Assembly: GCF_014230465.1 (NCBI RefSeq)
Contig: NZ_JAAXCY010000007.1
Coordinates: forward strand, 124,001-188,000
DNA: 64,000 nucleotides
Reading direction: 5' to 3'
DNA from: Pseudomonas cremoris
Lineage (GTDB): Bacteria > Pseudomonadota > Gammaproteobacteria > Pseudomonadales > Pseudomonadaceae
The notes under the pieces were generated by a model that did not search any database, was not told the DNA's origin, and worked only from the letters and a program-made list of their open reading frames with translations. Each line of letters begins with the position of its first letter. Positions within the stretch are counted from its first letter, which is position 1. The translations under genes and the position numbers were made by a program. Positions 11,696-31,642 of this stretch are shown here, one piece after another.

Positions 11696-12703
11696 ATGGA
11701 AAGACGTCAATTCAGCGGTGGCATGAAGGGTAAGAACCTGCGCTACCTCAACGAAACCCAGCAGCCGACGTCAGTTACCCGCGTCGGCTTCTTGCTGCTC
11801 GAACACTTTTCCCTGCCGGCATTCACCCAGACCCTCGACACCCTCATTACCGCCAACCTGTTGCGCCCCGACCTGTTTGCCACACGCACCTTCGGTTGTG
11901 GCGACGGTGAAGTGATCAGCGACCTGGGCCTGGTCATCCGGCCCGATGCGCGCCTCGACATCACGGCGCTGCAAGACCTTGACCTGCTGGTGATCTGCGG
12001 TGGTTTCCGTACCGAACTCAAGGCCGGCGAAGACTTCATCCACTTGCTGCGCAGCGCTGCCGAACACGGCATCAGCCTGGCCGGCTTGTGGAACGGCTCA
12101 TGGTTCCTCGGCCGCGCCGGCCTGCTGCAAGACTACCGCTGCGCCATCCATCCCGAACATCGCCCGGCGTTGGCGGAAGTGTCCAAGGCCGCCCAGGTCA
12201 CCAGCGAACCTTACGTTATCGATCGCGACCGGCTGACCGCCTCAAGCCCTTCGGGCGCGTTCCACATGGCCCTGGACTGGATCAAGAGCCTGCACGGCAA
12301 AGCCCTGGTCGAGGGCATCGAAGATATTTTGGCGTTTGAAGAGTCGCGCTACCGGCGCATCAAGCCCACCGAAAACGTCAGCGTCAGCGCGCCCTTGCGT
12401 GAAGTGGTCAAGCTGATGGACGCCAACCTTGAAGAGCCCCTGGAACTGGACCAACTTGCGGTCTACGCCGGCCGCTCGCGCCGCCAACTCGAACGGCTGT
12501 TCAAGGAACAACTGGGCACCACGCCGCAGCGCTACTACATGGAACTGCGCGTCACCGAGGCCCGGCGGTTGCTGCAGCACACGGAGTTGTCCCAGGTGGA
12601 AGTGTTGGTGGCATGCGGTTTTGTGTCGCCGAGTCATTTCAGCAAGTGCTACAGCTCATATTTCGGATATCGCCCCTCGAAGGAGAAGCGGTTGGTGAAG
12701 TAG
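11696..12703 (+). CDS. GlxA/ArgR-type AraC-family regulator with DJ-1/GATase-like domain
   Basis: This 335-residue transcription factor has an N-terminal class-I glutamine-amidotransferase-like sensor domain (about residues 28-190; VGFLLLEHFSLPAFTQTLD, then VICGGFRTE, then LAGLWNGSWFLG). A C-terminal AraC helix-turn-helix pair follows (about 235-330; LDQLAVYAGRSRRQLERLFK, then FVSPSHFSKCYSSYFGYRPS). In pseudomonads this architecture senses amines, betaines or amino acids (ArgR, GbdR, CdhR, SouR), but I cannot assign it to one of these. It follows lepB by 43 bases with no obvious functional link. A start at 11723 (MKGKNL) is also possible. Confidence 0.85.
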   Translation: MERRQFSGGMKGKNLRYLNETQQPTSVTRVGFLLLEHFSLPAFTQTLDTLITANLLRPDLFATRTFGCGDGEVISDLGLVIRPDARLDITALQDLDLLVICGGFRTELKAGEDFIHLLRSAAEHGISLAGLWNGSWFLGRAGLLQDYRCAIHPEHRPALAEVSKAAQVTSEPYVIDRDRLTASSPSGAFHMALDWIKSLHGKALVEGIEDILAFEESRYRRIKPTENVSVSAPLREVVKLMDANLEEPLELDQLAVYAGRSRRQLERLFKEQLGTTPQRYYMELRVTEARRLLQHTELSQVEVLVACGFVSPSHFSKCYSSYFGYRPSKEKRLVK

Positions 12704-13046: not shown

Positions 13047-14975
13047 TCATTCAGCCCGGTTGAAACTCAGTGATGAAACCTGTGTTGCCAAGTAGGCATG
13101 TGCAGGCGCAACGGCAGAGCTGGCGAGTACCAGCAGGCTAAGCGTGTCACCCATCAAATCCAATACGCCACACAATGTGCTCACGGTTGCTTTAGCCGTA
13201 TCGGCAAAGACGAGGCTTACGGATTGACGTGTGAGCTTGCTGCCTACCGCATTGATATCCGTGAATCCCGTTAACTCGCAGCGCGTGCCAACGCAGGTGA
13301 AAGTACCTCGCACACTACCCACTTGCCGTTTGCTATCGCTGTACACATTCAAGACTAAAGAGTGCCCATCGCTTGTGACCCATCTGCCCGCGAGTGCGCT
13401 CTCAATTGGCAGAGGTTGGTTGTCGACGCTGGGCGTCAGTAGTGATTGTTTTTTAATCCGTCGATACACCAACTTGTCGATATAGCTCCCTCGGTTGGCG
13501 AGTTCAGGGAAGTCGCTGGTTGCAACCAGCAGGTGGGACAGTGTCAGCGCATCGCCTTGGTCTGTGATGCTTAGCTGTCCGCTCAAGCCGGAGACCCAAT
13601 TCCAACTGGGGTCTTGTTTTGAGTCGCCAAGGTCATGCCAATTAATAGCCAGCGCCAGTGGTTGGTTCCTTGTGCGGGAAGCCCCTGCGCCCATCAGGCA
13701 ACCTGTGATCAAGTAATGGCCGGTTGATCCGGTAGAGGATTGATAGCGGCCGTTGACCTGCTGCCCGGTCACTTCCAACGTCATCACCGAACCGTAGTCA
13801 TTCGTCCAGGTGCCCGCGACACACGCGCTTTGAACATTAGGGCCTGGCAGGCTGACGCTTCCACTCAGTACTGCTCTTGTGCCCGGCACAAACAGTTTTG
13901 ACGATGATCGAGTGATGATCTGTGGTCCATCAGGGCGATTGAATAGCCAGATACCCACGGGTGCCAACGAATACACCTCGCTGTTGCACTTCACCACTTG
14001 GTATTCATACACGGTGTAGCAATGCTCCATCACCAATGACCCCACCAGCGCCAGGTCCTTTAGGCCCAGCGGTGCGAATTGAGGCAGCGTCTGGCCTTTT
14101 TGAGGGCCTTCCTCTATCAGGGTGTTGTAGAGGTCAGCACCCAGAGTGAGTTCACCGTCCGAAAAACCCAACACGATATCGGGTCGTCCGCCCGCCGCAA
14201 TCCGGGCCAGGGTTTGGCGCATCAACGTGTCGTCACCCTTGAACTGCGATGAGCCCGAGTCGAGAGCAAACTTGATATCGGTCGCCAGTGTTTCTTCGCC
14301 TATCGAATAGGACTTTAAGTCGGTCGACCAGATGTACTCCACACCGGGCAGCGTGCTGTAGACAGACCAGGGCAAGAAGAGGTGGGAGCCCTGGGTTTTT
14401 GATGGGTCGACAGCGCCCATTTGGCAAGTGCCGTTGCGTTTGCCGGCATCCCAGTCAAACGCTACAAACGGATGAGCAGGGTCCAGTTGCCCGTCACGCA
14501 TCAACGTCTGGAGCACGAAGGAACTGCGACCCTCCACATAAGCACTGCTGCATGGCAGGCCAAGGCCTCCATCCCAATCCAACTGCCTGAATTGCTCGCC
14601 AGCGTACGCTGCCGCTAGGAATAGTTGGGTATCTAGGCGCGCACCAGCAGGTGTCGTCAGGACGTCCGAGGCTGACTCGACTTGCATTGTGCCCCAGGGT
14701 CCAAAGCTGTAGGGCCGACGCAGGCAGTCGGTATAGGTAAAGGTACTGGACGCCTCGATATCAAAACGTCCACCGGCGAAGTGTGTGCATTCATCGGCGG
14801 TGCAAAGTGTCGAAGTGATCCAGCTCATGTTCGTACCCGAATCGAGTGAGAACTTGAGCGATTGGGCAGGGGTTCCAAGCGCTATCGTGCAATACCAGGG
14901 CGAAGCACCATTGTTTTGGAAAGGTCCGCGCTGCATGGGGAACACCAAAGTGGCGGGTAACGATTTACTGTTCAT
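13047..14975 (-). CDS. pepsin-like aspartic protease fused to two avidin-like domains
   Basis: This is a 642-residue protein with start ATG 14975 behind GGAG. Residues 1-345 look like a family A1 aspartic protease. The first catalytic loop is FSLDSGTNMSW (Asp45-Ser-Gly) and the second is FALDSGSSQF (Asp239-Ser-Gly), with paired Cys residues between; the usual DTG is DSG in both lobes. Residues 384-505 read as an avidin/streptavidin domain: AGTWTNDYGS (Asn392, Ser396), NGRYQSSTG (Tyr411, Ser413), ALAINW (Trp446), WNWVSGLSGQL and a late Asp500. Biotin-contacting Asn, Tyr, Ser, Trp and Asp positions appear kept, but the streptavidin Trp108 position looks like His481. Residues 527-620 (ALAGRWVTSDGHSLVL...) look like a second, more degenerate avidin-like barrel. 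There is no signal peptide. The function is unknown; whether it binds biotin or is a protease is untested. Confidence 0.72.
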   Translation of the reverse strand: MNSKSLPATLVFPMQRGPFQNNGASPWYCTIALGTPAQSLKFSLDSGTNMSWITSTLCTADECTHFAGGRFDIEASSTFTYTDCLRRPYSFGPWGTMQVESASDVLTTPAGARLDTQLFLAAAYAGEQFRQLDWDGGLGLPCSSAYVEGRSSFVLQTLMRDGQLDPAHPFVAFDWDAGKRNGTCQMGAVDPSKTQGSHLFLPWSVYSTLPGVEYIWSTDLKSYSIGEETLATDIKFALDSGSSQFKGDDTLMRQTLARIAAGGRPDIVLGFSDGELTLGADLYNTLIEEGPQKGQTLPQFAPLGLKDLALVGSLVMEHCYTVYEYQVVKCNSEVYSLAPVGIWLFNRPDGPQIITRSSSKLFVPGTRAVLSGSVSLPGPNVQSACVAGTWTNDYGSVMTLEVTGQQVNGRYQSSTGSTGHYLITGCLMGAGASRTRNQPLALAINWHDLGDSKQDPSWNWVSGLSGQLSITDQGDALTLSHLLVATSDFPELANRGSYIDKLVYRRIKKQSLLTPSVDNQPLPIESALAGRWVTSDGHSLVLNVYSDSKRQVGSVRGTFTCVGTRCELTGFTDINAVGSKLTRQSVSLVFADTAKATVSTLCGVLDLMGDTLSLLVLASSAVAPAHAYLATQVSSLSFNRAE

Positions 14976-15138: not shown

Positions 15139-16497
15139 TCAGCGCAATGCCTTGCCCTCCGTTTCAGGAATGAACACCACTACAATCACCGTCACGAGCA
15201 AAAACACGTTGATGATGGTGGTCGTCAGGTTAAACGACGAACCATAAGCAATCAGGGCGCCAATGAGCGACGGAGCGAGTACGTTCGCGATGCGCTGGGC
15301 AAAAATCGCCCAGCCGTAACCGACGGTGCGTAGCGGGGTAGGGTAGAGCTCTCCAATCCAGGCACCCCATACGCCCCAAGCGCCAAGACTGAAAAACGCC
15401 AAGGCGAAGTTGCTCAGATAGAGCATTTCCAGCGTGTGGGCATTGGCAAACCCATAGCCAGCCAGTACAGAGGCGCTGATAAAGCCCACGACGACTTTTT
15501 TGCGTCCAAAGCGTCCCGTCAAATACGACGCAGCCATGTAGCCCGGGATCATGCACAGGGCTGACAGCGCGATAAAACCATAGCTTTGGGGCAGGCTCAA
15601 ACCGCGCTGTTGCAACAGCGTCGGTAACCAAGTCTGCAAACCCCAATAACCCCAGGAGAAAGTGAAATTGACGGTGATTTGCAGCGCACTGATCTTGAGC
15701 CATGCACAGCTGAATAGCTCACGCTGACGGCCCGACACACTGCGATCCACCGTCAACGTGCATTCATCAGACACGTGCACCGCGCCATCGCTCAACGTGC
15801 AGATCGTTCGCCTGGCTTCTGCCTGGCGCCCTACTGAGGCGAGCCAATAGGGCGACTCCGGCACCCAACGCGCCACGGCTATCGCCCATAACCCGCCGAG
15901 TGAGCTCAACACAATGATTGCGCGCCAACCGTAGGGCAGCAGCCATACCGTGGCGCCCAAGGCGAGCAGCATGCCTATAGGCCAGCCAGCGGCTAGATAG
16001 ACCGTCAACGCGCCCCGTTGACTGACCGGTAACAGCTCCTGAAAGTGTGCGAACGTCACCACCATCATGCCCACCGCCGCAATTCCGGAAAGCAGCCGCA
16101 ACGCATAAAGGGTCGAGTAGTCAGGTGCAAACGCGCTGGCCATGGAAATCAGTCCGTAAGCGCCTAGGCTCCAGACAATCGCCCGCTTGCGGCCAAATCG
16201 TTCGGCAAGTCTGCCCCAGCCCAATGCCCCCAAGAGCATGCCGATAAACATTGCGCTGATCAGGTGACCCACGGCCAGTGCATCCAGGGCAAACTCAGCG
16301 GCAATCAATGGCGCGGTGTAGACGATGATCATCATCTCCCACGCTTCAATCGCAAAGACAAAGAACAACACCAGGCAGCACTGTAAATGGGCGCGGGTAA
16401 GGGGGACGTCTCTGAAGAGATCACCCACCTTGCGGGTGCGCCCCTCGGCATCCGGTTCCGAGTGGGCAGGGTGGAGCATTGGAGGTGTATCACTCAT
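15139..16497 (-). CDS. MFS transporter of the hydantoin-type cluster
   Basis: This is a 452-residue inner-membrane transporter with about 12 membrane segments. It shows the MFS motif A (GWGRLAERFGRKRAIV) after segment 2, its repeat ASYLTGRFGRKKVVV in the second half, and a central cytoplasmic loop. It resembles the sugar/aromatic-acid symporter branches (AAHS-like). The ATG at 16497, with AAGGA upstream, is preferred over the longer in-frame start at 16629. It lies 19 bases after the racemase gene and is last in the catabolic operon, so it probably imports the substrate. The substrate is not determinable here. Confidence 0.88.
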   Translation of the reverse strand: MSDTPPMLHPAHSEPDAEGRTRKVGDLFRDVPLTRAHLQCCLVLFFVFAIEAWEMMIIVYTAPLIAAEFALDALAVGHLISAMFIGMLLGALGWGRLAERFGRKRAIVWSLGAYGLISMASAFAPDYSTLYALRLLSGIAAVGMMVVTFAHFQELLPVSQRGALTVYLAAGWPIGMLLALGATVWLLPYGWRAIIVLSSLGGLWAIAVARWVPESPYWLASVGRQAEARRTICTLSDGAVHVSDECTLTVDRSVSGRQRELFSCAWLKISALQITVNFTFSWGYWGLQTWLPTLLQQRGLSLPQSYGFIALSALCMIPGYMAASYLTGRFGRKKVVVGFISASVLAGYGFANAHTLEMLYLSNFALAFFSLGAWGVWGAWIGELYPTPLRTVGYGWAIFAQRIANVLAPSLIGALIAYGSSFNLTTTIINVFLLVTVIVVVFIPETEGKALR

Positions 16498-16516
16498 GAT
16501 CGCAATCCTTTCAAAG

Positions 16517-17338
16517 TCAGGCTGTGACACGATTGCCAATTGGCACCGGGCTTTGGAACAAACCGAATCGCTCGATTTCGGCTTCCGGTGGCGGTTCACA
16601 GCTGCCGACTCTGCTAGGGCGCCAACCAAACCTGCGCTTCATGCCAGCCATGGATTCTGCGACTTTGAACGCGGCCACCACTGGGTCAATCACTGGCACT
16701 CCGACTTCTCGCTGTACCTCCTCGAAAAAGCCGAATTCGATGGTGCAGCCGAGGATGATGGCTTCGGCACCGTCATCCTCCACGGCGCGATGGGCCTGCT
16801 CGATGATCCTGCGACGGGTGACGGCATGGTCCAACTGAAACTCGTCCACGCCCATGCCCAGCGGCCTTAGTGACGCCAATCTGTCAGCTGCGCCGTAGCC
16901 TTGAACACGTGCGCGCATCTGCTCCATCCACTTGGTACGCCCGACGATGATTGAAAAACGGTTGGCCAACTGCTCCACCACCTGCAGGCTTGCCTGGCAC
17001 GGTCCTACTACCAGGGTCTCCCCGGAAATTTCCCGGGCGTCCTCAAGCGTTGGATCGTAAAAACAGCCAATCACCAAGGCATCGACACCTGCGCGTGCGC
17101 TGTCTCGCGCAATGTGCACGGTACGTTCATGGGTGAGCGCCTCGTAGGCACGGTATTCCAGGTGCGAGGGACTGTGGGGCATGTCAAACGACACCACTTC
17201 AACCTGGGTCGAAGGTAGTTTGATGCTATGCAACAGATGGGCAATGGGTTCGTCGAACGTCGGGCAGCCAATGGGGTTGAGCCAGCGCACGGTGACCGAG
17301 ATGTCTTGTGGTGCGATGTTGAAAGGTGAAGGGTTCAT
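16517..17338 (-). CDS. Asp/Glu/hydantoin racemase family protein
   Basis: The 273-residue protein carries the two widely spaced cysteine motifs of this cofactor-independent racemase family, ALVIGCFYDP (Cys92) and AIILGCTIEF in the second half. The two Cys act as paired proton donor and acceptor. Members include hydantoin racemase HyuE, Asp/Glu racemases and arylmalonate decarboxylase. Beside HyuA/HyuB homologues, racemisation of a 5-substituted hydantoin or a related cyclic amide is the likeliest role. The C-terminal tail of about 35 residues is rich in Pro and Arg and looks unconserved. Confidence 0.8.
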   Translation of the reverse strand: MNPSPFNIAPQDISVTVRWLNPIGCPTFDEPIAHLLHSIKLPSTQVEVVSFDMPHSPSHLEYRAYEALTHERTVHIARDSARAGVDALVIGCFYDPTLEDAREISGETLVVGPCQASLQVVEQLANRFSIIVGRTKWMEQMRARVQGYGAADRLASLRPLGMGVDEFQLDHAVTRRRIIEQAHRAVEDDGAEAIILGCTIEFGFFEEVQREVGVPVIDPVVAAFKVAESMAGMKRRFGWRPSRVGSCEPPPEAEIERFGLFQSPVPIGNRVTA

Positions 17339-17369: not shown

Positions 17370-18260
17370 TTAGAAAAACTTCACCAGGGCCATGGTCAAG
17401 CTATTGGAATAGGGCAGGTTGTCGCTGTGGTAGTAATCGAAGTTCAGGTTTGCCGACACGTAGAACTTCTGTTTGGCGAACCCGGTGTAGGTCATCGCCG
17501 GGCCGAGCTTGCCTTGACGCGATTCTTTGAAGTCCGAGGCCGAGCGATTGTTGATGTGGTAGGAGTGATGCACGCCGAGCCATAGGTCGTCGGTTACCAG
17601 GTAGCCTGCGGCAATGTCCGCGAGCCAAAAACTGATACCGCCGCGAAGTTTTACCGGGTCCCCATTGCCCAGGTCGGTTGAATGGCGATTGCGAGAGGCG
17701 TAGTGGATGCCCGCCGGTGTAAAGGTGGCGGCAAAACGCCCTACCCGCAGATAGTTGGCGACGCTGAAACTGGCGCCGTAACGATTGGCAAATGCGCCAT
17801 AACCGGTGCCCTCATCGTTTCCGTTGGGAAACTCCAGGGATAGCGTGGGGTTGACCCAAAACGTGGTGAAATCGTCAGCACCGTAGGCGCTGGTGGGTTC
17901 GACCACGTTGTAGTAATAAGCCAGGCCCAAATTAGGCGAAGCCACATCCCAGTCGCCGTTGTTGCGCGACCCATTGCTGGCGGTGTAGCCGGCGTCTGCA
18001 CCGACCCAGAATTGCACCTGGTCGCGCTGCGTTCCGGTGATACCGGTTTCGGAGAAGTACGCGAGCACCGTGTTGCTACCGGCCCGCACGTCGCCATTGC
18101 TGGTGCGATTGAATACAGGGAAGGATTCCAGGGCCCACTTGCCGGGTTCCCCTGGCTGGGCAAAACCGATGAATTGATCGCCATGCGCTGTGGGGGCAAC
18201 CCCCAAAATCAAGGCAAACGCGGGCCCTACCCATAAACGAGATGAGTGCTGAAGTTTCAT
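17370..18260 (-). CDS. outer-membrane channel, SphA/MetA-pathway-of-phenol family
   Basis: This is a 296-residue protein with a signal peptide (MKLQHSSRLWVGPAFALILG, cleaved after AHG). Alternating aromatic/polar beta strands end in FF, a typical terminal strand of outer-membrane barrels. The pattern DQFIGFAQPGEPGKWALES, then LGLAYYYNVVEP, matches the transporter family linked with phenol and cyclic-compound degradation. It sits between hyuB and the racemase gene in the same orientation. It is therefore probably a dedicated porin for the cluster's substrate. Confidence 0.75.
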   Translation of the reverse strand: MKLQHSSRLWVGPAFALILGVAPTAHGDQFIGFAQPGEPGKWALESFPVFNRTSNGDVRAGSNTVLAYFSETGITGTQRDQVQFWVGADAGYTASNGSRNNGDWDVASPNLGLAYYYNVVEPTSAYGADDFTTFWVNPTLSLEFPNGNDEGTGYGAFANRYGASFSVANYLRVGRFAATFTPAGIHYASRNRHSTDLGNGDPVKLRGGISFWLADIAAGYLVTDDLWLGVHHSYHINNRSASDFKESRQGKLGPAMTYTGFAKQKFYVSANLNFDYYHSDNLPYSNSLTMALVKFF

Positions 18261-18308: not shown

Positions 18309-19967
18309 TCAGAACGTCAGGCCATACACCGTACGTGCGGTCGTGGCGTCCACGTAGCCGTTCTTCACGTCTTCACGTACCGCAGCGGGATCGCGTTGGC
18401 TTGCCGGGCCGTAACCCCCGCCAGCCCCTGTGCGCACCCGAACCAGGTCACCGGCATTCAGCGGGACGCCGCTGGCCATGCTGTAGCGTTGGCGTTCGCC
18501 ATCATTTCGGATGACTTCCACATAATTGGGCGTGCCTTCGGCGCCTTGTTCCAGGCCCCAAGGTGGAATGACTGATCGGGTGTAGCCGCACGTCATGAAG
18601 CTGCCGTCAGCGCGAATGCGATAGTCGATACAGACACCGCGGCCGCCCCGATACTGGCCATGGCCACCGGGTTCGTCATTGAGCGTCAGTTGTTCGACAT
18701 ACAGCCCGTAGCGGGCCTCGCAGACCTCAACGGGGCAGTTGTAGGTCTCGCCATGTAGCCCGGAATAAACAGCATTGTTGCCGTCGCGTCCGGGCTCTGC
18801 ACCCCAGCCACCGATTTCCGGCTCCACTAGGGTGAACATGCGCCCGGTATCCGGGTGAATACCGCCAATGATCGTTGCGCACACCGAGGCAAAATTGCCG
18901 GCAGGCAAACGTTCTGGAAATTGCTGTGCGAGGCAGCACAGGATCAGGTCCTGCACCCGAATCAGGTTCTCGAAGTAGAAACCTTCAGCGGCGGGCAGTT
19001 GGGCGTCAAACAGTGAGCCTGGACGCGTTAGCACACGCAGTGGGCGAAACGTGCCGCCATTGGTGATGCCTTGTGGTGCAGTCAGTGCCTTGAACGCCAT
19101 TTGCGCGGCGACCACCGCACCGTCACGGCTCAGGTTGGTGGGCCCGAGGCATTGGTCCGGGTTGTCTCGCAGGTCGATCAGCAATTCGGTATTGCGTATG
19201 TCGATCCGTACCTTGAACAGGCTGCCATCATCTTGCAGTTCTTCCAGGTTGAACTGCCCGGTGGGCAACCCGGCTAGCGCTTTGAGCGAGACTTTTTCGC
19301 CCAGGTCCATGAAGTCATTCATCGCTTGCAAAAACACACTGCTTCCGTATTTTTCCGTCAGCTCACGCAAGCGCGTTGCGCCACCCCGTACTGCCGCTAC
19401 ACCGGCCCACAAGTCACCTTCCATAAAGTCCGGCATACGTGTGTTGGTGCGCAGAATTTGCAACACCGAGCGGATCGGATGGCCCCTGCTGATCAGCTTC
19501 ACCGAGGCCAGGCGCAAACCTTCCTGGAAAATATCCGTGGCATCCGTCGATAACGAACCGGGTACTCTGCCGCCAACATCGTTCCAGTGCGCGATATTGG
19601 CGGTCCAGGCGACCAGTTTGCCGCTGGCGAACACGGGCATGGCCAGCACCACATCGTTAAGGTGGGTCACGGCTCCATCATGGGGGTCGTTGCTGATGAA
19701 CACGTCGCCGTCTTCAATGTCCTGCGGCAACGGATGGTGCAGCAGAATTTTCTTCACCGCTTTGTCCAGCACGCCGACAAAGGCCGGAATACCAGCACCC
19801 GAACTGGCGATCTCGCCCTGGGCGTCGGTAATCCCCGTACCCATGTCCAGCACTTCATAAATCACCGGGCTCATTGCGGCATTGCGCATTGCGGTGAACA
19901 TTTCGTCGGCAATCGCCTGGAGCGAGTTCTGGATGATGTCGCGGGTAAAGATATCGAGGGTAGTCAT
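18309..19967 (-). CDS. hyuB: hydantoinase B/oxoprolinase family subunit
   Basis: This is the B subunit of an ATP-dependent N-methylhydantoinase/5-oxoprolinase-type enzyme (552 residues). The N-terminus (FTRDIIQNSLQAIADEMF, then AMRNAAMSPVIYEVLDMGTG) and the later block NDPHDGAVTHLNDVVLAMP are characteristic of HyuB. Near the C-terminus is TGAGGGYGPASQRDP, the family's Gly-rich end. It follows hyuA by 12 bases, so the pair is translated together. The true substrate may be hydantoin, N-methylhydantoin, 5-oxoproline, acetophenone-like or another cyclic amide. Confidence 0.9.
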   Translation of the reverse strand: MTTLDIFTRDIIQNSLQAIADEMFTAMRNAAMSPVIYEVLDMGTGITDAQGEIASSGAGIPAFVGVLDKAVKKILLHHPLPQDIEDGDVFISNDPHDGAVTHLNDVVLAMPVFASGKLVAWTANIAHWNDVGGRVPGSLSTDATDIFQEGLRLASVKLISRGHPIRSVLQILRTNTRMPDFMEGDLWAGVAAVRGGATRLRELTEKYGSSVFLQAMNDFMDLGEKVSLKALAGLPTGQFNLEELQDDGSLFKVRIDIRNTELLIDLRDNPDQCLGPTNLSRDGAVVAAQMAFKALTAPQGITNGGTFRPLRVLTRPGSLFDAQLPAAEGFYFENLIRVQDLILCCLAQQFPERLPAGNFASVCATIIGGIHPDTGRMFTLVEPEIGGWGAEPGRDGNNAVYSGLHGETYNCPVEVCEARYGLYVEQLTLNDEPGGHGQYRGGRGVCIDYRIRADGSFMTCGYTRSVIPPWGLEQGAEGTPNYVEVIRNDGERQRYSMASGVPLNAGDLVRVRTGAGGGYGPASQRDPAAVREDVKNGYVDATTARTVYGLTF

Positions 19968-19979
19968 GGCAGCGCTCCT

Positions 19980-22067
19980 TTATCCGTTGATCATGATGTG
20001 CAGGTTGCCAAGGCGGTCCACGTGTACGCGGTTACCGGGGTGAACCACTACTGTGGTACCGGTATCTTCAACGATGGCCGGGCCAAAAAACGTCATCAGT
20101 GGCTCAAGCAAGTCGTAGTCATAAAGGCTCGCCTCGTGGATGCCGTCCTGGGCGTAATCCACGCGTCGCGTCCCCTTACAGGCCTCATTAACTCGTCGAC
20201 CGCTAATCGGGAGTGCCTGGGGCGTCAACTTGCCGATTTGGGCAACCGCCACCAGGTGAAAACCAATGATTTCCAACGGCGCTTGCAGGCGGTAGGTGTA
20301 GTGCTGTTCGTAGAGACTCTGGAAGCGTTGTTCGATTGCAGCCCAGTCCGCGTCCAGGCGCTCGCCTGGGTTGAGCAGTACTTCCACCGAGTGTTCCTGA
20401 TTCTGGTAGCGCAGCTTGCAATGCACCTGCAGCTCAACCTGCTGTGGGGGGACTGCCTCCGCCACAAATTGTTCGCGGGCGGAACACATCAGTTCTGCAA
20501 GGAACAACTGGGTTTGTTCAAGGTTGTGTGAATGCGACGTTTCCACGAAGCGGTTGATGAACAGGTCGCGGCGCAGGTCTGAAAGGGTCATGCCCCAAGC
20601 TGAAAACACCGAAGCGTTGCGTGGCACGATGACTTTTTTCACACCCAGTTCCTGGGCCAGGGCCACGGCATGCATCGCGCCACCACCGCCAAACGCCATC
20701 AAGGTCAGCTCCCGTGGGTCGTGACCACGGCTCAACGACACCAGCTTCAATGCGTTGACCATGCTGTCGTTGGCCAGGCGCACGATGCCCCGTGCGACCT
20801 CATCCGCAGTCAAGTGCAGGCGCTGGCCAAGGGCGTCCAGCCCCACGGAAACGCTAGCTAAGTCAGCCACCACGTTACCGCCGCAAAAATAGTCCGGGTT
20901 GATACGCCCAAGCCTGAGATTGGCGTCGGTGGTGGTGATCTGCGTCCCACCATTGCCATAGGCTGCGGGCCCGGGCACGGCGCCAGCGGACCGAGGGCCG
21001 ACATGTAGTTTTTCGAAGTCGTCGACCCAGGCGATGGAACCACCGCCGTTGCCGATTTCGACCAAGTCCACTACCGGCACCATGATCGGATAACCCGCGT
21101 TGATCCGGTTACGCTCAATCCAGTAATCGGTCTTGATCGACACCTGCCCATTTCGGATCAGTGCACATTTGGCCGTCGTGCCACCAATGTCGAGGCCCAA
21201 CACGTTGGGCTCGTCTATCAGGCGCCCCAGTTCAGCCGCGGCCCAGAAGCCGCTGGCGGGCCCGGATTCGACCATGGTGATCGGGATTTCTCGCGCATGC
21301 TCCACGCTGTCCACACCGCAGTTAGACTGCATGATGTACAAGGGGGCCTTGTAACCAGCGTCGCGCAAACCGCTGGCCAAGTCGTCCAGGTAACGTGCGG
21401 CAATGGGTTGTACATAGGCCGACAGTACAGTGGTACTCGACCGTTCGTACTCTCGCCATTCTCGAGTGATCTGATGGGAAGCCACCGCTGAAACGTCTGG
21501 CCAGAGCCTGCGTACTTCAGCCAATACCGCTTGCTCATGGGCCGGGTTGGCGTAGGCGTGCAGTAAACAAATGGCGATAGCTTGTACGTTGTCAGCACGG
21601 AAGGCCTCGATGATCTCGGCAACGTGCGCAAGCTCCAGCGGTTGGCGCTCCTGGCCATTGGTATGGAGGCGGCCTGCTACTTCGCGACGCAAATAGCGCG
21701 GTACAAATGGGACAGGCTTGACCCATTTCAGATTGAAGTAATCCGGGCGATTGGCGCGGGCAATTTCCAGTACATCGCGAAAGCCCTGGGTCGTGATCAG
21801 CCCGGTTTTTACGCCCCTACGCTCGGTCAAGGCATTGATCACTACGGTGGTGCCATGAGCCAGGAAATCGACGGTTTCCAGGCTGACGTCGGCTTTGCGG
21901 ATGACGTTCAGTACGCCTTGGGCAAAGTGTAGGGGAGTGGTATCCACTTTGGCGGTGCGAATCGTCTGCTCGCCAGTGGCTGGATCGCTTTCGAAGTACA
22001 CCAGGTCGGTGAAGGTTCCACCGACGTCGGTGGCCACACGTACTGTTTTTTTGCCGTGCATACCCAC
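19980..22067 (-). CDS. hyuA: hydantoinase A/oxoprolinase family subunit (ATP-binding)
   Basis: This is the A subunit of the same ATP-dependent amidohydrolase (695 residues). It opens with the ASKHA-fold phosphate-binding motif RVATDVGGTFTDLVYFES. It also has LGLDIGGTTAKCAL (second phosphate loop) and a Gly-rich LMAFGGGGAMHAVALA block. I keep a GTG at 22067 as start because AGGAG lies seven bases before it; the ATG at 22061 is the alternative. It is the first structural gene after the regulator gene. ATP hydrolysis drives opening of the cyclic amide in characterised members. Confidence 0.9.
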   Translation of the reverse strand: MGMHGKKTVRVATDVGGTFTDLVYFESDPATGEQTIRTAKVDTTPLHFAQGVLNVIRKADVSLETVDFLAHGTTVVINALTERRGVKTGLITTQGFRDVLEIARANRPDYFNLKWVKPVPFVPRYLRREVAGRLHTNGQERQPLELAHVAEIIEAFRADNVQAIAICLLHAYANPAHEQAVLAEVRRLWPDVSAVASHQITREWREYERSSTTVLSAYVQPIAARYLDDLASGLRDAGYKAPLYIMQSNCGVDSVEHAREIPITMVESGPASGFWAAAELGRLIDEPNVLGLDIGGTTAKCALIRNGQVSIKTDYWIERNRINAGYPIMVPVVDLVEIGNGGGSIAWVDDFEKLHVGPRSAGAVPGPAAYGNGGTQITTTDANLRLGRINPDYFCGGNVVADLASVSVGLDALGQRLHLTADEVARGIVRLANDSMVNALKLVSLSRGHDPRELTLMAFGGGGAMHAVALAQELGVKKVIVPRNASVFSAWGMTLSDLRRDLFINRFVETSHSHNLEQTQLFLAELMCSAREQFVAEAVPPQQVELQVHCKLRYQNQEHSVEVLLNPGERLDADWAAIEQRFQSLYEQHYTYRLQAPLEIIGFHLVAVAQIGKLTPQALPISGRRVNEACKGTRRVDYAQDGIHEASLYDYDLLEPLMTFFGPAIVEDTGTTVVVHPGNRVHVDRLGNLHIMING

Positions 22068-22200: not shown

Positions 22201-24852
22201 CTACCCACACGGGTAGGTTGATGGGTCGGGGGAGGGGGTCCACAAACCAAGGCGCAAGGTGGCCGCGATTGCCGCAGTGCGGTTATCCACGCAGAGCTTG
22301 GCAAAGATGTGCTTGAGGTGGAATTTCACGGTGTTTTCCGAAATGTCCATGCCTTGGGCAATGGCCTTGTTCGATTGACCTTCGGCCAGCAGGGTGAGGA
22401 TCTGCATTTCCTTAGGGCTGAAGGGCAAGCGCGGGCGAACCGGATGAGCACGCCATCCGCGCAGACGTGTGATGATCGCAGGTAGGCTGCCGTTGCTTTC
22501 GGCGCAGGACTCCAGCGCGGGCAGCACACCGGGCCCAGCCTCCAACAGCAGGCCGGGTAATACCTGTGCAGGAACCGAGACCAGGATGACGTCTTGCGTC
22601 AGTGGAAAGCCTTTGCCAAAAGCAGTGAGGGTCAGGATCTGAAGGCGCCATGCCGGGAACTGTAAGCCACGTTCCTGCAGTGCGCGCGCGCCCTGCAGCA
22701 GGCGGTTGAGCGCAGCGCCTGAGGCTCCCGTGGCGAACTGCAGCCGCGCCAACGCCACTATTGCGGCCTCCTGGTTGCGCCAGTCGTCGGGGTTGTCCGC
22801 GGCACGTTCAAGGTTCGCTGCGAGCGCTGCCTGGCGGGCTTGGCTCAATGAGCCAGCTTGCACCAACAGGTCGACGCGCCAGGCGCTGACCAAGCGTGCC
22901 AGCCGCTCCCAATGACGTGCGTCGGCCAGTTGGGTGACGTGCTCAAGCTCAAGCAACGCCGGCTGTAGGCCGAGGGTACGCAGGGACGTTCGCCACGCCA
23001 CCTCGGCGGTGACGGCAGCGATGTCCAGCCAGCCATCGGTGTGTTTGAGCGAGGCCCAGCCGTCGCGAAACCAAGGTGTGGCCTCGGCCCAGGCACCTTG
23101 CCAATACAGATGCTGCGCTTTGAGGCATCCCACCAGTGCCCGCACTGAGCTTTCAGTGCCAAAATCGCGATCGGCAACGGCCAACGCGCTCTTAACCAGA
23201 TGAGCGAAGGCGGGTATATCGCCCGTCAGCGCAACAATTTGCGCTTCATGGACCCGGCAATAATTTTCGCCACGTGGGCTGGCAACCAGGCGCATCTTGA
23301 TATGGGCCGAACGAATAATCCGCAACGCAGATGTCAGTTGGCCCTGAGTCAGCGCCTGCAGGGCATGGACACACTCCAGCGTGCCCTCGGCGAGCAAGTT
23401 ACTGCCTGTCGCGCCAGATGAGGTAGGGACATCGAAGCAATCAACATAGGCACAGGCCAAGGTCTGGATGATATGAAAGTCTCGCGACAGGCGCGGATCC
23501 TCTTGCACACGATCCTGGACCAGGTTGAGCAGTTGGCTGGCGAGGGCATGTTCGCCGAGCTTGGCATGCAAGTAGGCCTGGAGCAGCAGCAGGTCCGGTT
23601 CTGTACCGAGGGTCTTCTCATCAAACAGTTGCAGCAGGCTTTGGGCATAGCGAATGCCGTTATACAGCACCACTTCCCAACTGCCGGCGCGCACCACCAG
23701 CGTTACTGCCAGCCGAGTGTCGCGGGCGCGCAAGGCATAAGCGATTGCTTGCGCCCAGTCCTTCTCATCTGCCAGCCACAGGGCTGCCGCGCAGTAGATA
23801 TCCCGTGCTGCGCTGGCATCGATGCCTTGGTTGAGAAAATCCTGCAGCAGCCGATGATGGCGGAACCAATGGCGGCCTGCGTCCAAAGGCACCAGAAGGG
23901 CGTCAAGATGAGCCAACTGCACCAGTAATTGCGCACTGTCGTTACGCCCGCGCACTGCATCGGCCAATTCAGCGTTGAAGCGCTCCAGCAGCGCCATGTC
24001 GCGCAGGAACGCCTGGCATTCCTGAGGCAAGCGCTGAACCACTTGCCCGGTGAGGTAGTCGGCAATATCGGTGACCCGGCCGGAAAACGCAGTGAGCCCG
24101 TACAGCGAAGCGTCGCCGCTGGCCCGCCACAAACGAGCCAGCTGTACAGCTACCGGCCAGCCTTCAGTGGTTTGGTGCAGGTGTTCGAGCTCGGCCGGCA
24201 GGACATCAGGCCCCAGGATGGCAGCGGTTTGCGCCTCCGAGAATATCAGTGCCTGTGCAGACACCTCGTTTACCCAGCCATTGGCTTTCCACAGCGCGAG
24301 TGGCCAGCTCGGACGCACGCGTGTGGACACCACCCATTCAAGCCACGGTGCCGCCTGTTCCAACAGCGCCTGCACGAGTGCATCGAGTTGTGGGTTGGCC
24401 GCGCAGTGGTAGTCGTCAAGAAATAGCGTGACCCGACGATTATCCCGGGCAAGTGCATGGAGCAGGGCGGTGAGTGTGCGTTGCGGTTGTGCGTCCAACG
24501 CCTGGGATTGTGCGAGTCGCGACAGATGCCCCAGGTCCAGGCCGGCCCGTTCTAACGTTAGGATCAAGTAAGACAGGAAGCGGTTGGGGTCGCTGTCGGC
24601 TTCATCCAGTGACAGCCAGGCAACGATGCCTGGGCTCGTCGTCGAGAGCAGGGTTTGCCGCCACTGCATCATCAATGTGGTTTTCCCGAAACCCGCAGGT
24701 GCAACCACCAGGATCAACGGGCCTTTGAGACGCCGTTGAAGGGATTCGAGCAGCGACTCTCGAGGTAGCGAAGTTAACAAGGTCAACGGTGGCGTGAGCT
24801 TGCCGACCCAGAACCAGGTGCCAGCGGTGGCAGTAGAAGGCAGTTTATTCAC
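22201..24852 (-). CDS. MalT-type LuxR-family ATP-dependent transcription activator
   Basis: This is an 883-residue LAL/MalT-like regulator. It has a Walker A motif APAGFGKTT at residues 51-59 and Walker B VTLFLDDYH at 141-149. A long helical-repeat region (about 330-780) would bind the inducer. The C-terminal LuxR helix-turn-helix is at about 809-868 (FSPKEMQILTLLAEGQSNKA, then ISENTVKFHLKHIFAKL). It is upstream of and co-directional with hyuA, 133 bases away, so it is the likely activator of the hydantoin-type cluster. MalT-type proteins multimerise on ATP plus inducer. The inducer here is unknown. Confidence 0.88.
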   Translation of the reverse strand: MNKLPSTATAGTWFWVGKLTPPLTLLTSLPRESLLESLQRRLKGPLILVVAPAGFGKTTLMMQWRQTLLSTTSPGIVAWLSLDEADSDPNRFLSYLILTLERAGLDLGHLSRLAQSQALDAQPQRTLTALLHALARDNRRVTLFLDDYHCAANPQLDALVQALLEQAAPWLEWVVSTRVRPSWPLALWKANGWVNEVSAQALIFSEAQTAAILGPDVLPAELEHLHQTTEGWPVAVQLARLWRASGDASLYGLTAFSGRVTDIADYLTGQVVQRLPQECQAFLRDMALLERFNAELADAVRGRNDSAQLLVQLAHLDALLVPLDAGRHWFRHHRLLQDFLNQGIDASAARDIYCAAALWLADEKDWAQAIAYALRARDTRLAVTLVVRAGSWEVVLYNGIRYAQSLLQLFDEKTLGTEPDLLLLQAYLHAKLGEHALASQLLNLVQDRVQEDPRLSRDFHIIQTLACAYVDCFDVPTSSGATGSNLLAEGTLECVHALQALTQGQLTSALRIIRSAHIKMRLVASPRGENYCRVHEAQIVALTGDIPAFAHLVKSALAVADRDFGTESSVRALVGCLKAQHLYWQGAWAEATPWFRDGWASLKHTDGWLDIAAVTAEVAWRTSLRTLGLQPALLELEHVTQLADARHWERLARLVSAWRVDLLVQAGSLSQARQAALAANLERAADNPDDWRNQEAAIVALARLQFATGASGAALNRLLQGARALQERGLQFPAWRLQILTLTAFGKGFPLTQDVILVSVPAQVLPGLLLEAGPGVLPALESCAESNGSLPAIITRLRGWRAHPVRPRLPFSPKEMQILTLLAEGQSNKAIAQGMDISENTVKFHLKHIFAKLCVDNRTAAIAATLRLGLWTPSPDPSTYPCG

Positions 24853-25023: not shown

Positions 25024-26265
25024 CTATTTGAATCGGCTCAAGCGATAGGGCACGTACGTTGGATGGTTCACGGATGATGCCAACTGCCCCACCATCTCCG
25101 CCGTCACCGCCGCCTGCGTCAACCCCAGATGCTGATGCCCAAACGCAAGCAACACCTTGCCCTCACACACCCGATCAATAATCGGCAACGAGTCTGGCAA
25201 TGAGGGCCGGAACCCCATCCATGGCGTCGCGTCTTGCGCACTCAATTCCTCGCGAAATAACCCGCTGCTCAACCGGTGCAACTGCCAGGCACGCTTCATA
25301 TTCGCCGGGCGCTCCAGGCCCGCGAACTCCACGGTGCCTGCCAGGCGCAGGCCGCCGGACATCGGCGTCATGATGAACTTGCGCTCCAGTGAGGTGACCG
25401 CAAACGGCAGGCGATTGTGTTCGTGGGGCAGCATCAGGTGGTAGCCGCGCTCAGTGTCCAGTGGCACGTTTTTGCCGGTCAGCGCAGCGGTGAGCTTGGC
25501 CGAATGGGCGCCGCAGGCGATCAGCACCTGGCCTGCCGTCACACGGCCTTGATCTGTGTTCAGCGATACACCGTGCGCTTCTACCCGGCCATCAAGTACG
25601 CGACGTTTAAGAAATTGCACGCCGTGCGCCTTGGCCGCTTGCACCAGCTCGCACACCACGTGGTACGGATCGAGAAAATGCCCGGTAGCGGGAAAAAACA
25701 GTCCACCTTGAATGTTGTTGCTCAGTTGCGGTGCAGCTTGGCGAATAGTTTCACCTGACCAAAAATCCACAGGCACTTGCTGCTGGCGCATGCGTTGTTG
25801 CAAGGCATCGAGCGCCGCTCGCGAGTCGGGGCGTTCAAACACCAGCAGTGAGCCGTCCTCGCGCAGCAACTGCGGGCGTTCGATGCTGTGCAGCAGGCGT
25901 TGCCAGGCACCCAGGCTGCCTTCGTTGAGCGCGCGAATGCCCGCCACCGTGCGCTGATAATGCGTCGGACGCAGGTTCAACAGCAGGCGGATAAACCAGG
26001 GCAGGGCGCGGGGCATGTATTTCCAGTCCAGGCGCAGCGGGCCCATCGGGTCCAGAAGCATGGCGGGCAGGCGCTTGAGGATCGACGCGTCGGCGATGGG
26101 AAACACTTGCTCGGTCGCCAGGTGACCAGCGTTGCCATAGGACGCACCCATGCCCGGTGCTTGAGCATCCATTACCACCACCTGCTTGCCTTGGCGAGCC
26201 AACTGTAGGGCGCAGGCGACACCGACAATACCGGCACCGACCACTACAATTTCGGGATCGGACAT
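25024..26265 (-). CDS. lhpB: D-hydroxyproline (D-amino-acid-type) dehydrogenase, FAD-dependent
   Basis: This 413-residue DadA-like flavoprotein has an N-terminal Rossmann dinucleotide motif (VVVGAGIVGVACALQLARQG) and the late GMxP-type region (MGFRPSLPDSLPIIDR, then LAFGHQHLGLTQAAVTAEMV). In the hydroxyproline pathway this step oxidises cis-4-hydroxy-D-proline to 1-pyrroline-4-hydroxy-2-carboxylate. The cluster supports the role: epimerase, deaminase, semialdehyde dehydrogenase and permease lie just upstream on the same strand. It is a single-chain enzyme; no extra subunits of the multi-component type are present. Assignment to hydroxyproline rather than another D-amino acid rests on context. 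Confidence 0.82.
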   Translation of the reverse strand: MSDPEIVVVGAGIVGVACALQLARQGKQVVVMDAQAPGMGASYGNAGHLATEQVFPIADASILKRLPAMLLDPMGPLRLDWKYMPRALPWFIRLLLNLRPTHYQRTVAGIRALNEGSLGAWQRLLHSIERPQLLREDGSLLVFERPDSRAALDALQQRMRQQQVPVDFWSGETIRQAAPQLSNNIQGGLFFPATGHFLDPYHVVCELVQAAKAHGVQFLKRRVLDGRVEAHGVSLNTDQGRVTAGQVLIACGAHSAKLTAALTGKNVPLDTERGYHLMLPHEHNRLPFAVTSLERKFIMTPMSGGLRLAGTVEFAGLERPANMKRAWQLHRLSSGLFREELSAQDATPWMGFRPSLPDSLPIIDRVCEGKVLLAFGHQHLGLTQAAVTAEMVGQLASSVNHPTYVPYRLSRFK

Positions 26266-26268
26266 GGC

Positions 26269-27840
26269 CTAGGCCTCTCTCTGGCCATCGAGCAAACGCC
26301 GCAGCAGCAAGGGATTGCCGTGTTGCAGCGCACTGGGCAGCAGCGCATCCGGAAAGTCCTGATAGCACACTGGCCGCAGGAAACGGTGGATGGCGGCCGT
26401 GCCCACCGACGTGCTGCGTGAGTCGGAAGTGGCAGGGAAAGGCCCACCGTGAACCATCGCGTCACTGACTTCAACACCCGTAGGCCAGCCGTTGACCAGC
26501 AGCCGACCGGCCTTGCGTTCCAACACCGGTAGCAGGGCCTTGGCGCTTGCCAGATCGGCGTCGTCGAGATGCAAGGTGGCGGTGAGTTGGCCTTCCAGGT
26601 GTTCGCTGACTTGGCGAACTTCATCCGCGTCGGCACACACCACAATCAACGACGCCGAACCAAATACTTCGGCGTGCAGGTGCTCGTTGGTCAAAAAGTC
26701 TTGGCCTCGGGTGATGAACACATGCGCCTGGCCCTGGTTCGGAGCGTCTGCCGCCTGACCTTTTGCCGCGACATGCGCGTGCTGGCTCAAGGCGCTGACG
26801 CCAGACGCGTATGCACTGTAAATGCCAGCGGTAAGCATGGTTTGCGCTGCGCAGCCCGGCAGGTGCTCACTGACTGTGCTGATAAAACGATCAAGCGCCG
26901 GCCCTTTAACCGCAATCACCAAACCGGGGTTGGTGCAGAACTGCCCGGCACCTTGGGTCAACGAGGCTACAAAACCCTGGGCCAGTGCCTCGGCTCGTGC
27001 TTCGAGCGCTGCCGCAAACAGATACACCGGGTTGATCGAACTCATTTCCGCATACACCGGAATGGGCTCGGGCCGCGCCTGTGCGGCGTGAGTCAGTGCA
27101 ACACCACCGCTGCGCGAACCGGTAAACCCCACCGCCTTGATACGTGGATCGGTGACCAACGCAATGCCTACTTCGCGGCCCGAGCCATACAACAGAGAAA
27201 ACACGCCCTCCGGCAGGCCGCAGGCCTTGATCGCCTGTGCAACCGCACGGCCCACCAGTTCACTGGTGCCGGGATGGGCGCTGTGGGCCTTGACCACCAC
27301 CGGGCAACCAGCGGCCAGCGCCGACGCGGTATCACCGCCCGCCACCGAGAACGCCAGCGGGAAATTACTCGCGCCAAACACGGCCACTGGGCCCAACGCA
27401 ATATGGCGCTGGCGCAGATCCGGGCGCGGTAGGGGCTGGCGCTCCGGCAGCGCCGGGTCCACGCGCACATCCAGCCATTCGCCGGCACGTACGGTGCGGG
27501 CGAAGGTGCGTAACTGTCCGCAGGTACGGCCGCGTTCGCCCTGGATGCGCGCACGTGGCAGGCCGGTTTCGGCAACAGCGCGGTCGATCAGTTCATCGCC
27601 CAGCGCTTCGATCTGTACCGCGATGGTTTCAAGAAAGGCAGCACGTGCCTCAAAGGGGGTTTCGCGGTAACCATCAAAGGCGGCCCACGCCAATGTGCAA
27701 GCCTGTGCAACGTGCTCGCCGTTGCCGCCCAGGTAGGCCGGCTCCAGAGCGGCATCCGTGGCGGGATTGATCGCCCGAATCGCCTCGCGATTGCCGGTAA
27801 GGGGGTGCTGACCGATCAGCATCTTGCCCGTCAGAGTCAT
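26269..27840 (-). CDS. alpha-ketoglutaric semialdehyde dehydrogenase (hydroxyproline pathway)
   Basis: This 523-residue NADP-type aldehyde dehydrogenase starts at ATG 27840 (AGGA upstream). The catalytic Cys302 is in [11 protein letters not shown], the general-base Glu265 in [11 protein letters not shown], and the cofactor loop is [10 protein letters not shown]. Such enzymes (AraE/KGSADH type III) oxidise 2-oxoglutarate semialdehyde to 2-oxoglutarate, the last step of hydroxyproline breakdown. The stop is 3 bases upstream of the dehydrogenase start at 26265, so the two are coupled. The length suits this class. Confidence 0.87.
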
Positions 27841-27899
27841 GGGATCGTCCTGGAAAAAAAGGGTTGGCCGCTGTGGAAGCCACAGCGGCGCGCAGTGCA

Positions 27900-28847
27900 T
27901 CAGTCGACGTTCTGCTCGGCCGACCAGTTGGCGTACCACTGGCGGAACAGTGCGTATTGGTTTTCGGCGTAACGACGCTGGGCATCGCTGAGTACGTCGG
28001 TCTCGTTGAAGTGCAGGGCGTATTCCTGGTCGCCGTTGAGCACCATCAGGTGTTTGTAGTACAGCACCAGGTCACAGCCTTCATCGAATGACGACAGCAC
28101 GGCCAGTGCGGCTTCGAGTTCACGGGCCAGGCGGCGCGCTTTGGCATCGCCCTTGGCGGCTTTTTTGCTCAGAGCCACCAGTTGCAGCACTTCGCGAGGC
28201 AGGGCGTTGCCGATACCGGTGATCGCGCCGGTGGCGTTGCAGTTGACGAAGCCGTGCACCACTTGGGTGTCCACGCCGACCATCAAGGTCACGCTATCGT
28301 CCTGGGAGGTGATGTGTTCAGCGGCGTAGCGCAGATCGGCACCACCGCCGAATTCCTTGAAACCGATGAGGTTCGGGTGTGCGCGACGCAGTTCGAAGAA
28401 CAGGTCGGCGCGGGTGGCGAAGCCGTAGTAGGGGCTGTTGTAGATCACCGCCGGCAGGTTCGGTGCGGCGTCGAGAATCGCGGAAAAGTGCGCCTTTTGC
28501 GCGGTAGCCGAAGCGCCACGTGACAGCACGCGCGGGATTACCATCAAGCCATGGGCACCGACTTGGGCGGCGTGCGCTGCATGGGCCACCGCCTCACGGC
28601 TGTTCACCGCACCGGTACCGACGATGGTGGGCACGCCGGCCGCCACCAGGCGTGCCACGCCTTCCTGGCGCTCGGCTTCGGTGAGCAACGGCCAGTCGCC
28701 CATGGACCCGCAATACACCACGGCGCTCATGCCTGCATCGATCAGCTGGCGGCCCTTGGCAACCAGCGCGTCAAAGTCCGGCGTGCGCTGCGGGGTGCAC
28801 GGGGTCATCAGGGCCGGGATGCAACCGGTGAAGATGTTATCGCTCAT
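27900..28847 (-). CDS. lhpC: DapA-family deaminase/dehydratase of the hydroxyproline pathway
   Basis: This is a 315-residue Schiff-base aldolase-fold enzyme. The active-site Lys164 is in [10 protein letters not shown] and Tyr136 in [10 protein letters not shown]. It is homologous to dihydrodipicolinate synthase, but in this cluster it corresponds to 1-pyrroline-4-hydroxy-2-carboxylate deaminase, which makes 2-oxoglutarate semialdehyde. It lies between the epimerase gene and the semialdehyde dehydrogenase gene, each within about 60 bases. The substrate assignment follows from genomic context. Confidence 0.87.
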
Positions 28848-28888
28848 TGTTCTAACTCCTTGGAACGTTCAGTCAAATTGAGAGGGGC

Positions 28889-29815: not shown

Positions 29816-29827
29816 AAAACGCTCCAA

Positions 29828-31453: not shown

Positions 31454-31642
31454 AGCGTCGCCTTCTTGTGAGTTATTGGATAGGCATGCAGTGGCCATAG
31501 AGTGAACGTGCGGAAGGCGCCGCGATTGATGTTTTTTGCCGGCAGTGATGACGAAATCAGCACAGTTTGCTCTGCTCGACAGCGGTTATGGCATGGTGCA
31601 ATCTGCTACGCGTCGAGGGTTCAGCGAAGGGGATAAACCGTC

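Follow-up and report, generated by a model that had tools for sequence, protein, structure and literature searches.

A pepsin-like peptidase fused to tandem avidin-like barrels beside a hydantoinase-type operon in Pseudomonas

Fusions between pepsin-like (A1) aspartic peptidases and avidins have been described before. Laitinen et al. (2021) reported A1 domains fused to avidins of their "Extended clade" in P. fluorescens and P. veronii, and A1-avidin proteins in Oleiagrimonas, Nitrincola, and a Cytophagales, as well as a C-terminal arrangement in Flexibacter, in another clade (PMC8033661). They found no domain in the C-terminal extensions of about 150 residues, and judged from sequence that the extended-clade avidins look like potent biotin binders. 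They studied gene vicinity by GO terms, within 500 bp and in nine genomes, and proposed a link to defense (PMC8033661). On the peptidase side, the bacterial A1 proteins surveyed in 2009 and the shewasins have no signal peptide (PMC2761423, PMC4814920), and shewasin D is mostly cytoplasmic (PMC4814920).

Here, we analyzed a stretch of 64,000 nucleotides of Pseudomonas cremoris (the window; contig NZ_JAAXCY010000007.1, positions 124,001 to 188,000), which encodes a fusion of the same architecture and belonging to the group of Laitinen et al. (PMC8033661). The first-pass annotation of this DNA knew of no described protease-avidin fusion. That claim was overtaken by the 2021 paper, while both folds, as modeled, and both sets of site residues stood. 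A previously undescribed fusion is thus ruled out, and the fusion as such is already known (PMC8033661). In contrast with that study, our models give the extension the fold of a second avidin barrel, and we name the partners of the gene in its operon. Four points are new in so far as they were not found in open PMC papers, among the matches listed: the tandem arrangement of the barrels, the operon, the clade of associated HyuB, and the recurrent change from fused to separate genes or back. PMC8033661 was the only paper on point for avidin-protease fusions among the matches listed from open PMC papers, and the word "hydantoinase" is absent from its main text. A search of open PMC papers for a link between avidin and hydantoinase gave nothing on point.

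Peptidase and avidin domains of the fusion

The central observation of the first-pass annotation, a protease fused to tandem avidin-like domains, is confirmed. Pfam places an A1 domain at residues 28-263 and an avidin domain at residues 387-475, both above cut-off (E-values in Table 1), and the models contain a bilobal pepsin fold and two eight-stranded barrels. The NCBIfam streptavidin profile scored 15.5 bits against the fusion, for a cut-off of 300. The full-length model has a pLDDT of 92.1 and a pTM of 0.72. A database search returned 239 homologs at E <= 0.001; among the matches listed (best 120 of 239), 83 of the first 87 align over 98-100% of its length; where the source organism of these 83 is given, it is Pseudomonas. 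A chance resemblance to A1 peptidases and avidins is ruled out by the Pfam matches, the full-length homologs, and the model.

Table 1. Features of the fusion gene and its operon in the window.
Feature	Position	Strand	Evidence
A1 aspartic peptidase-tandem avidin fusion, 642 aa	13047..14975	-	Pfam Asp 1.6e-18, Avidin 2.7e-7
A1 (pepsin-like) domain, aa 1-350	13926..14975	-	D45, D239, Phe91 in flap
Avidin barrel 1, aa 386-506	13458..13820	-	Pfam Avidin; N392, S396, Y411, S413, W446, D500
Avidin-like barrel 2, aa 526-641, eight strands	13053..13400	-	Model
MFS transporter	15139..16629	-	Pfam MFS_1 4.1e-41
Asp/Glu/hydantoin racemase family protein	16517..17338	-	Pfam PF01177 2e-32
Probable outer-membrane channel	17370..18260	-	Leader and kind judged by eye
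HyuB, metal-site subunit, ATP-dependent hydantoinase/oxoprolinase type	18309..19967	-	Pfam 7.2e-145
HyuA, ATP-site subunit	19980..22067	-	Pfam 7.1e-89
MalT-like LuxR-family ATP-binding regulator	22201..24852	-	Pfam GerE 6.8e-19; NCBIfam MalT 5.1e-74

The two DSG loops noted in the first pass are present as D45SG and D239SG (codons at 14841-14843 and 14259-14261, minus strand). Both positions are Asp in 54 of 56 A1 rows, the two gaps being pieces of the broken gene of locus L055. The flap position, Tyr75 in pepsin, is occupied by Phe91, and the pepsin-type Tyr is absent. Across the 56 rows this residue is Phe in 52, Tyr in L057 and L058, Trp in L071, and a gap in one. Phe is a common replacement of the flap Tyr in A1 proteins, and a Tyr75Phe mutant of rhizopuspepsin had weakened but retained activity; as of 2009, no natural Phe75 homolog had been characterized or proven active according to the same source (PMC2761423). 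Membership in the A1 family stands, as judged from sequence and modeled fold, but the replacement of the flap Tyr by Phe91 lowers the claim that this is an active pepsin-type enzyme.

The lack of a signal peptide had seemed odd. For the A1 part it is not, since the same is reported for the bacterial A1 enzymes of the 2009 survey (PMC2761423, PMC4814920). Shewasins A and D share with the fusion an A1 fold devoid of signal peptide and prosegment, but they have the flap Tyr where Phe is found here, and the portions of the two papers used here mention no avidin part (PMC2761423, PMC4814920). No signal peptide was seen in the Pseudomonas and sphingomonad forms inspected, nor, by eye, a clear leader in 11 other non-Pseudomonas A1 N-termini. 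Leader-like A1 N-termini were recognized by eye in six divergent loci (L066-L071), that of L069 being lipobox-like, and in five of these six proteins NYGA or DYGA precedes PW. The avidin of L071 also starts with a leader-like stretch (by eye). Hence, the compartment is not constant across the group. As a separate observation, the A1 gene at L055:10112-10922 seems broken into two frames, with both catalytic-Asp columns missing, and adjoins an uninterrupted tandem avidin gene and a Hyu cluster.

The barrels were modeled and searched separately from the A1 domain, because the VIA matches listed for the full model were all of pepsin type. Two avidin barrels were obtained, and these models match streptavidin structures. 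The biotin-contact-like residues named in the first pass are all present and near-invariant in relatives: N392, S396, Y411, S413, and W446 are identical in 54 of 54 avidin rows, and position 500 is D in 49, E in L066 and L071, N in L048, and a gap in L063 and L064, whose avidins are single-barrel. Of the four-tryptophan biotin cage, W446 occupies the position of streptavidin Trp79. N392, S396, Y411, S413, and D500 form a ureido-type set, the streptavidin ureido-binding residues being Asn23, Ser27, Tyr43, Ser45, and Asp128; the match of D500 to Asp128 was made by eye, the streptavidin alignments ending little beyond Trp79. Position 481, read in our alignment as the Trp108 position, is H in 30, N in 22, and Y in 2 of the 54 rows (H481 here). 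The suspected second, degenerate barrel has eight strands in the model and, in our reading of the alignment, lacks the contact residues of barrel 1. The extension of about 150 residues in the extended-clade avidins is thus explained by the model as a second avidin barrel. The closest designed counterpart is the engineered single-chain dimeric streptavidin (6s50, 6s4q), about 19% identical, which is a designed protein whereas the present one is natural, and from which it differs by the absence of the ligand set in barrel 2 (our reading).

The operon and its HyuA and HyuB enzymes

Upstream of the fusion gene and on the same strand lie, in order, the genes for the MFS transporter, the racemase, the channel, HyuB, HyuA, and the MalT-like regulator (Table 1). 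The MFS ORF, which has a TTG start, overlaps the racemase gene, and its true start is probably internal. The product of the probable channel gene has no Pfam or NCBIfam match; the gene keeps the same slot in the Pseudomonas loci. The regulator scored 249.8 bits against the NCBIfam MalT profile, below the cut-off of 537. No gene for an N-carbamoyl amidohydrolase or for side-chain degradation was seen in the cluster.

The closest solved protein to both Hyu subunits is the N-methylhydantoinase 7hk5 (6.8e-111 for HyuA and 1.6e-66 for HyuB). Among solved proteins they are nearest to this enzyme and to caprolactamase, with carboxylases ranking behind. In alignments, D41, H102, D105, and H127 of HyuB fall on the Asp-His-Asp-His metal site of the caprolactamase subunit CapB, and D14 and D293 of HyuA on the ATP-site residues Asp11 and Asp295 of CapA. 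Mutation of those CapAB residues inactivated or impaired caprolactamase (PMC8453981). The window proteins share the family of 7hk5 and CapAB (6yra) and keep the metal and ATP residues, but unlike them their HyuB belongs to a clade associated with A1 and avidin genes. Caprolactamase proper is ruled out, with scores of 201 and 486 bits against an equivalog cut-off of 1000 (NF050156/NF050157).

In a HyuB tree built from ORFs of at least 400 aa, the avidin/A1-associated HyuB fall in one clade (support 100/99), and 17 further HyuB encoded by ten of these genomes lie outside it. This clade has 31 rows, 26 associated and five labeled as other; three of the latter are associated genes entered twice (L087, L103, and L104) and two come from L109. 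Because these five rows lie inside the clade, the associated label needs six changes on the tree, for which the program warned of long branches meeting. L109 is a second Hyu cluster in the genome of L068, devoid of A1 and avidin, with two HyuB, a MalT-like regulator, a racemase, a TonB receptor, and NCS1 matches.

Directly upstream of the operon, at 25024-31498 (minus strand), are genes of what we read as the hydroxyproline-catabolism type: an FAD oxidoreductase, an aldehyde dehydrogenase, a DHDPS family protein, a proline racemase family protein, and an amino-acid permease. The proline racemase, DHDPS, and FAD oxidoreductase genes also occur beside the operon in five of five related Pseudomonas loci (L116-L120), and may merely mark the chromosomal site. 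On the other side, an AraC/DJ-1-type regulator at 11696-12703 (plus strand) is convergent with the fusion gene, and one lies beside the fusion in six Pseudomonas loci (L023, L025, L027, L031, L033, and L037).

Distribution and genomic contexts across bacteria

We scanned the genomes of 84,980 species with two peptide patterns from an A1 alignment and obtained 53 A1 loci, a set that does not comprise every A1 gene. Because both patterns match within A1, the scan did not favor loci with avidin. The pattern alignment (A2) pooled 24 of the 87 full-length fusions and 29 standalone A1 proteins, four of them fusions, with the query; alignment A1 comprised 111 of 200 proteins, and alignment A3 the window protein and 68 of 79 tandem avidins. 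Loci were sorted with profiles for A1 and tandem avidin. As ORFs were called from stop to stop, gaps and N-termini are approximate, and leaders were judged by eye in part of the loci.

Avidin is fused to A1 or adjacent on the same strand in 47 of the 53 loci: 20 are fused, 27 have a separate adjacent avidin gene, and six have none. Pseudomonas accounts for 14 of the 20 fused loci, and other fused forms occur in Vibrio, Oleiagrimonas, and Mariprofundus. In the 27 loci with separate genes, the avidin gene shares the strand of A1 and lies no more than 55 nt from it (stop-to-stop ORFs); A1 comes first in 26, avidin being first in L069. The whole genomes of L049, L054, L065, L067, L068, and L070, several of them MAGs and maybe incomplete, contain no tandem avidin relative. 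In a sphingomonad MAG (L030:9024-11963), tandem avidin genes flank A1 on both sides. The avidin tree needs five changes between fused and separate states, four of them forced by well-supported branches; some rows are long branches. Genes that are neighbors in some bacteria and encode a single chain in several separate lineages strongly suggest that A1 and avidin act jointly. Further surveys were positive in 4 of 298 genomes for the sphingomonad family (three already in the locus set) and in 4 of 398 for the phylum, and a PF01382 family search over 57 genomes matched in three.

Within Pseudomonas, we surveyed 398 genomes, a set apart from the window's own assembly, and 15 were positive: 11 with the fusion and four with tandem avidin alone. 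At least 6 of these 15 are loci of the 53-locus scan (identical avidin parts), so the counts are not independent. A HyuB at 78-94% identity is present in 13 of the 398 genomes, all 13 of which have the fusion or tandem avidin; conversely, 13 of the 15 positive genomes have a close HyuB. The associated P of 1.3e-22 is overstated, as genomes were treated as independent. Four further genomes have a HyuB at 41-43% identity, and none is among the 15. The four avidin-only genomes have no A1, their tandem avidin lying in the same slot behind MFS. Two genomes (G220 and G266) have the fusion with no operon genes in the 20 kb read. The nearest genome among the 398, G001, has neither fusion or avidin nor a close HyuB. 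In P. weihenstephanensis, a short ORF (L028:9186-9806) resembles a piece of the regulator joined to the MFS tail. The A1-avidin gene next to it is uninterrupted, so that this operon seems to have collapsed while its fusion gene was retained.

From the 53-locus scan and the Pseudomonas and sphingomonad surveys we picked by hand, after viewing contexts, 29 Hyu-type loci from Pseudomonas, sphingomonads, and other bacteria, a type in which A1/avidin is accompanied by HyuA/HyuB and a MalT-like regulator. HyuA and HyuB are near A1 and/or avidin in 28 of the 29, the exception being L028. A MalT-like match is present in 26, including the remnant in L028; L020 begins at HyuA, and any regulator would fall outside the sequence covered. 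Partners outside Pseudomonas include a TonB receptor, in some loci with an NCS1 permease or racemase, and gene order varies by lineage. In seven Pseudomonas loci an M24 peptidase gene follows HyuB, aminopeptidase P-like by Pfam in two.

Another 26 loci of the scan, from Marinomonas, Vibrio, and related bacteria, were hand-picked in the same way as signaling-type. They have no Hyu match within the stretch covered. In 23 of the 26, a histidine kinase/GGDEF gene lies at most 150 nt from the A1/avidin block, compared with 17 of 324 among the remaining genes of these loci. Since many of the loci are closely related, the 23 do not count as independent cases. One of the loci (L041) is cut by a contig end. 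L057 and L058 gave no match to the signaling queries; upstream of L058, on the opposite strand, Pfam identifies a histidine kinase. A STAND-type ATPase adjoins the block in L036, L060, and L066.

Possible functions of the peptidase-avidin pair

We tentatively propose that the fusion is an accessory part of an operon that breaks down a cyclic ureide or lactam, a reading that we favor over the others but hold to be somewhat less likely than not. The outer-membrane channel and the MFS transporter would import a ureide- or lactam-bearing conjugate, possibly biotin-like, and barrel 1, braced by pseudo-barrel 2, would capture it in the cytosol via its cyclic NH-CO group. The linked A1 domain would then hydrolyze a peptide or amide attached to the captured conjugate, after which the racemase would epimerize the freed ring and HyuAB would open it with ATP; the inducer would be sensed by the MalT-like regulator. 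In favor of this reading we observe the modeled folds, the conserved site residues, the adjacency of the genes, several passages between fused and separate forms, and the co-occurrence of the fusion or tandem avidin with HyuB; ligand, proteolysis, transport, and the order of steps are what we infer here. The streptavidin counterparts of the avidin contact set bind a cyclic NH-CO-NH group. We favor capture, cleavage, and ring opening because the ureido contact set is near-invariant and the enzymes inherited along with the fusion belong to a type that opens cyclic ureides and lactams. Caution is warranted by the Phe in the flap, the different residue at the Trp108 position, and the clusters that have lost one or other part. 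Against the catabolic reading are also the related Hyu cluster devoid of A1 and avidin (L109), three MAGs with A1 and Hyu where no tandem avidin was found (L067, L068, and L070), the fusions with no HyuA/HyuB nearby (G220, G266, and L028), the Marinomonas/Vibrio-type loci with no Hyu in the stretch covered, the varying compartment, the six changes of the associated label on the HyuB tree, and the failure to see an N-carbamoyl amidohydrolase or side-chain degradation gene in the cluster. As suggested in the first pass, the protein may also be a biotin-gated protease or a protease for biotinylated carriers. A more specific version of the catabolic reading is improbable in our view: the operon would serve bacteria to degrade biotin or biotinyl peptides, in that a cytosolic, natural single-chain avidin captures the vitamin, the aspartic protease frees biotin from the peptide, and the ureido ring is opened by a HyuAB dedicated to this task, while the marine gammaproteobacterial pair beside kinase/GGDEF genes would report the same ligand to c-di-GMP signaling. 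Older biochemical work describes growth of pseudomonads on biotin. Searches of open PMC papers gave nothing on point for bacterial biotin catabolism, among the matches listed, or for hydantoinase with biotin ring opening.

The chief rival, prompted by the second large group, in which A1/avidin is paired with signaling genes, is that A1-avidin is a ligand-sensing module that controls a neighboring signaling protein (the MalT-like regulator, a hybrid kinase with GGDEF, or a STAND ATPase) by ligand-dependent proteolysis or sequestration, outside substrate processing. We consider it rather unlikely. The close kinase/GGDEF genes of the Marinomonas/Vibrio-type loci, the adjoining STAND-type ATPases, the frequent MalT-like match in Hyu-type loci, and the persistence of fusions where Hyu is missing all speak for it, but in Pseudomonas the regulator is at the far end of the operon and the co-occurrence is with metabolic genes, and L057 and L058 gave no match to the signaling queries. 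That the protein is a scaffold keeping both folds with both activities gone, the A1 part presenting peptides and the barrels binding a non-biotin ligand, is unlikely too. The Phe flap, the H or N at position 481, and the lost site of barrel 2 (our reading) speak for such a scaffold; however, both catalytic Asp are kept in all 54 rows having those columns, across deep divergence, and the ureido-contact set is invariant save for D500 in 5 of 54.

A weapon against competitors or predators, in which avidin starves others of biotin and a protease is added, was proposed by Laitinen et al., who found two defense-pathway GO terms enriched near avidin genes in nine genomes (PMC8033661), and the leaders seen by eye in some members would suit it. 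We regard it as very improbable: the Pseudomonas and sphingomonad forms inspected lack a visible signal peptide, the fusion has no match in PADLOC, and the operon holds metabolic enzymes and transporters. Anti-phage defense was likewise rejected, as neither the fusion nor HyuA has a PADLOC match and the regulator and the L060 STAND protein gave weak local matches only.

To our knowledge, bacterial avidins have no agreed natural role, and few roles of bacterial pepsins are known. The adjacency of the two genes and their repeated passage between fused and separate states say that A1 and avidin work together. As modeled, the tandem avidin is a natural counterpart of the designed single-chain streptavidin dimer. 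Under the catabolic reading that we favor, the hydantoinase-type operon directs attention to cyclic ureides or lactams, and thereby suggests a job for a bacterial avidin.
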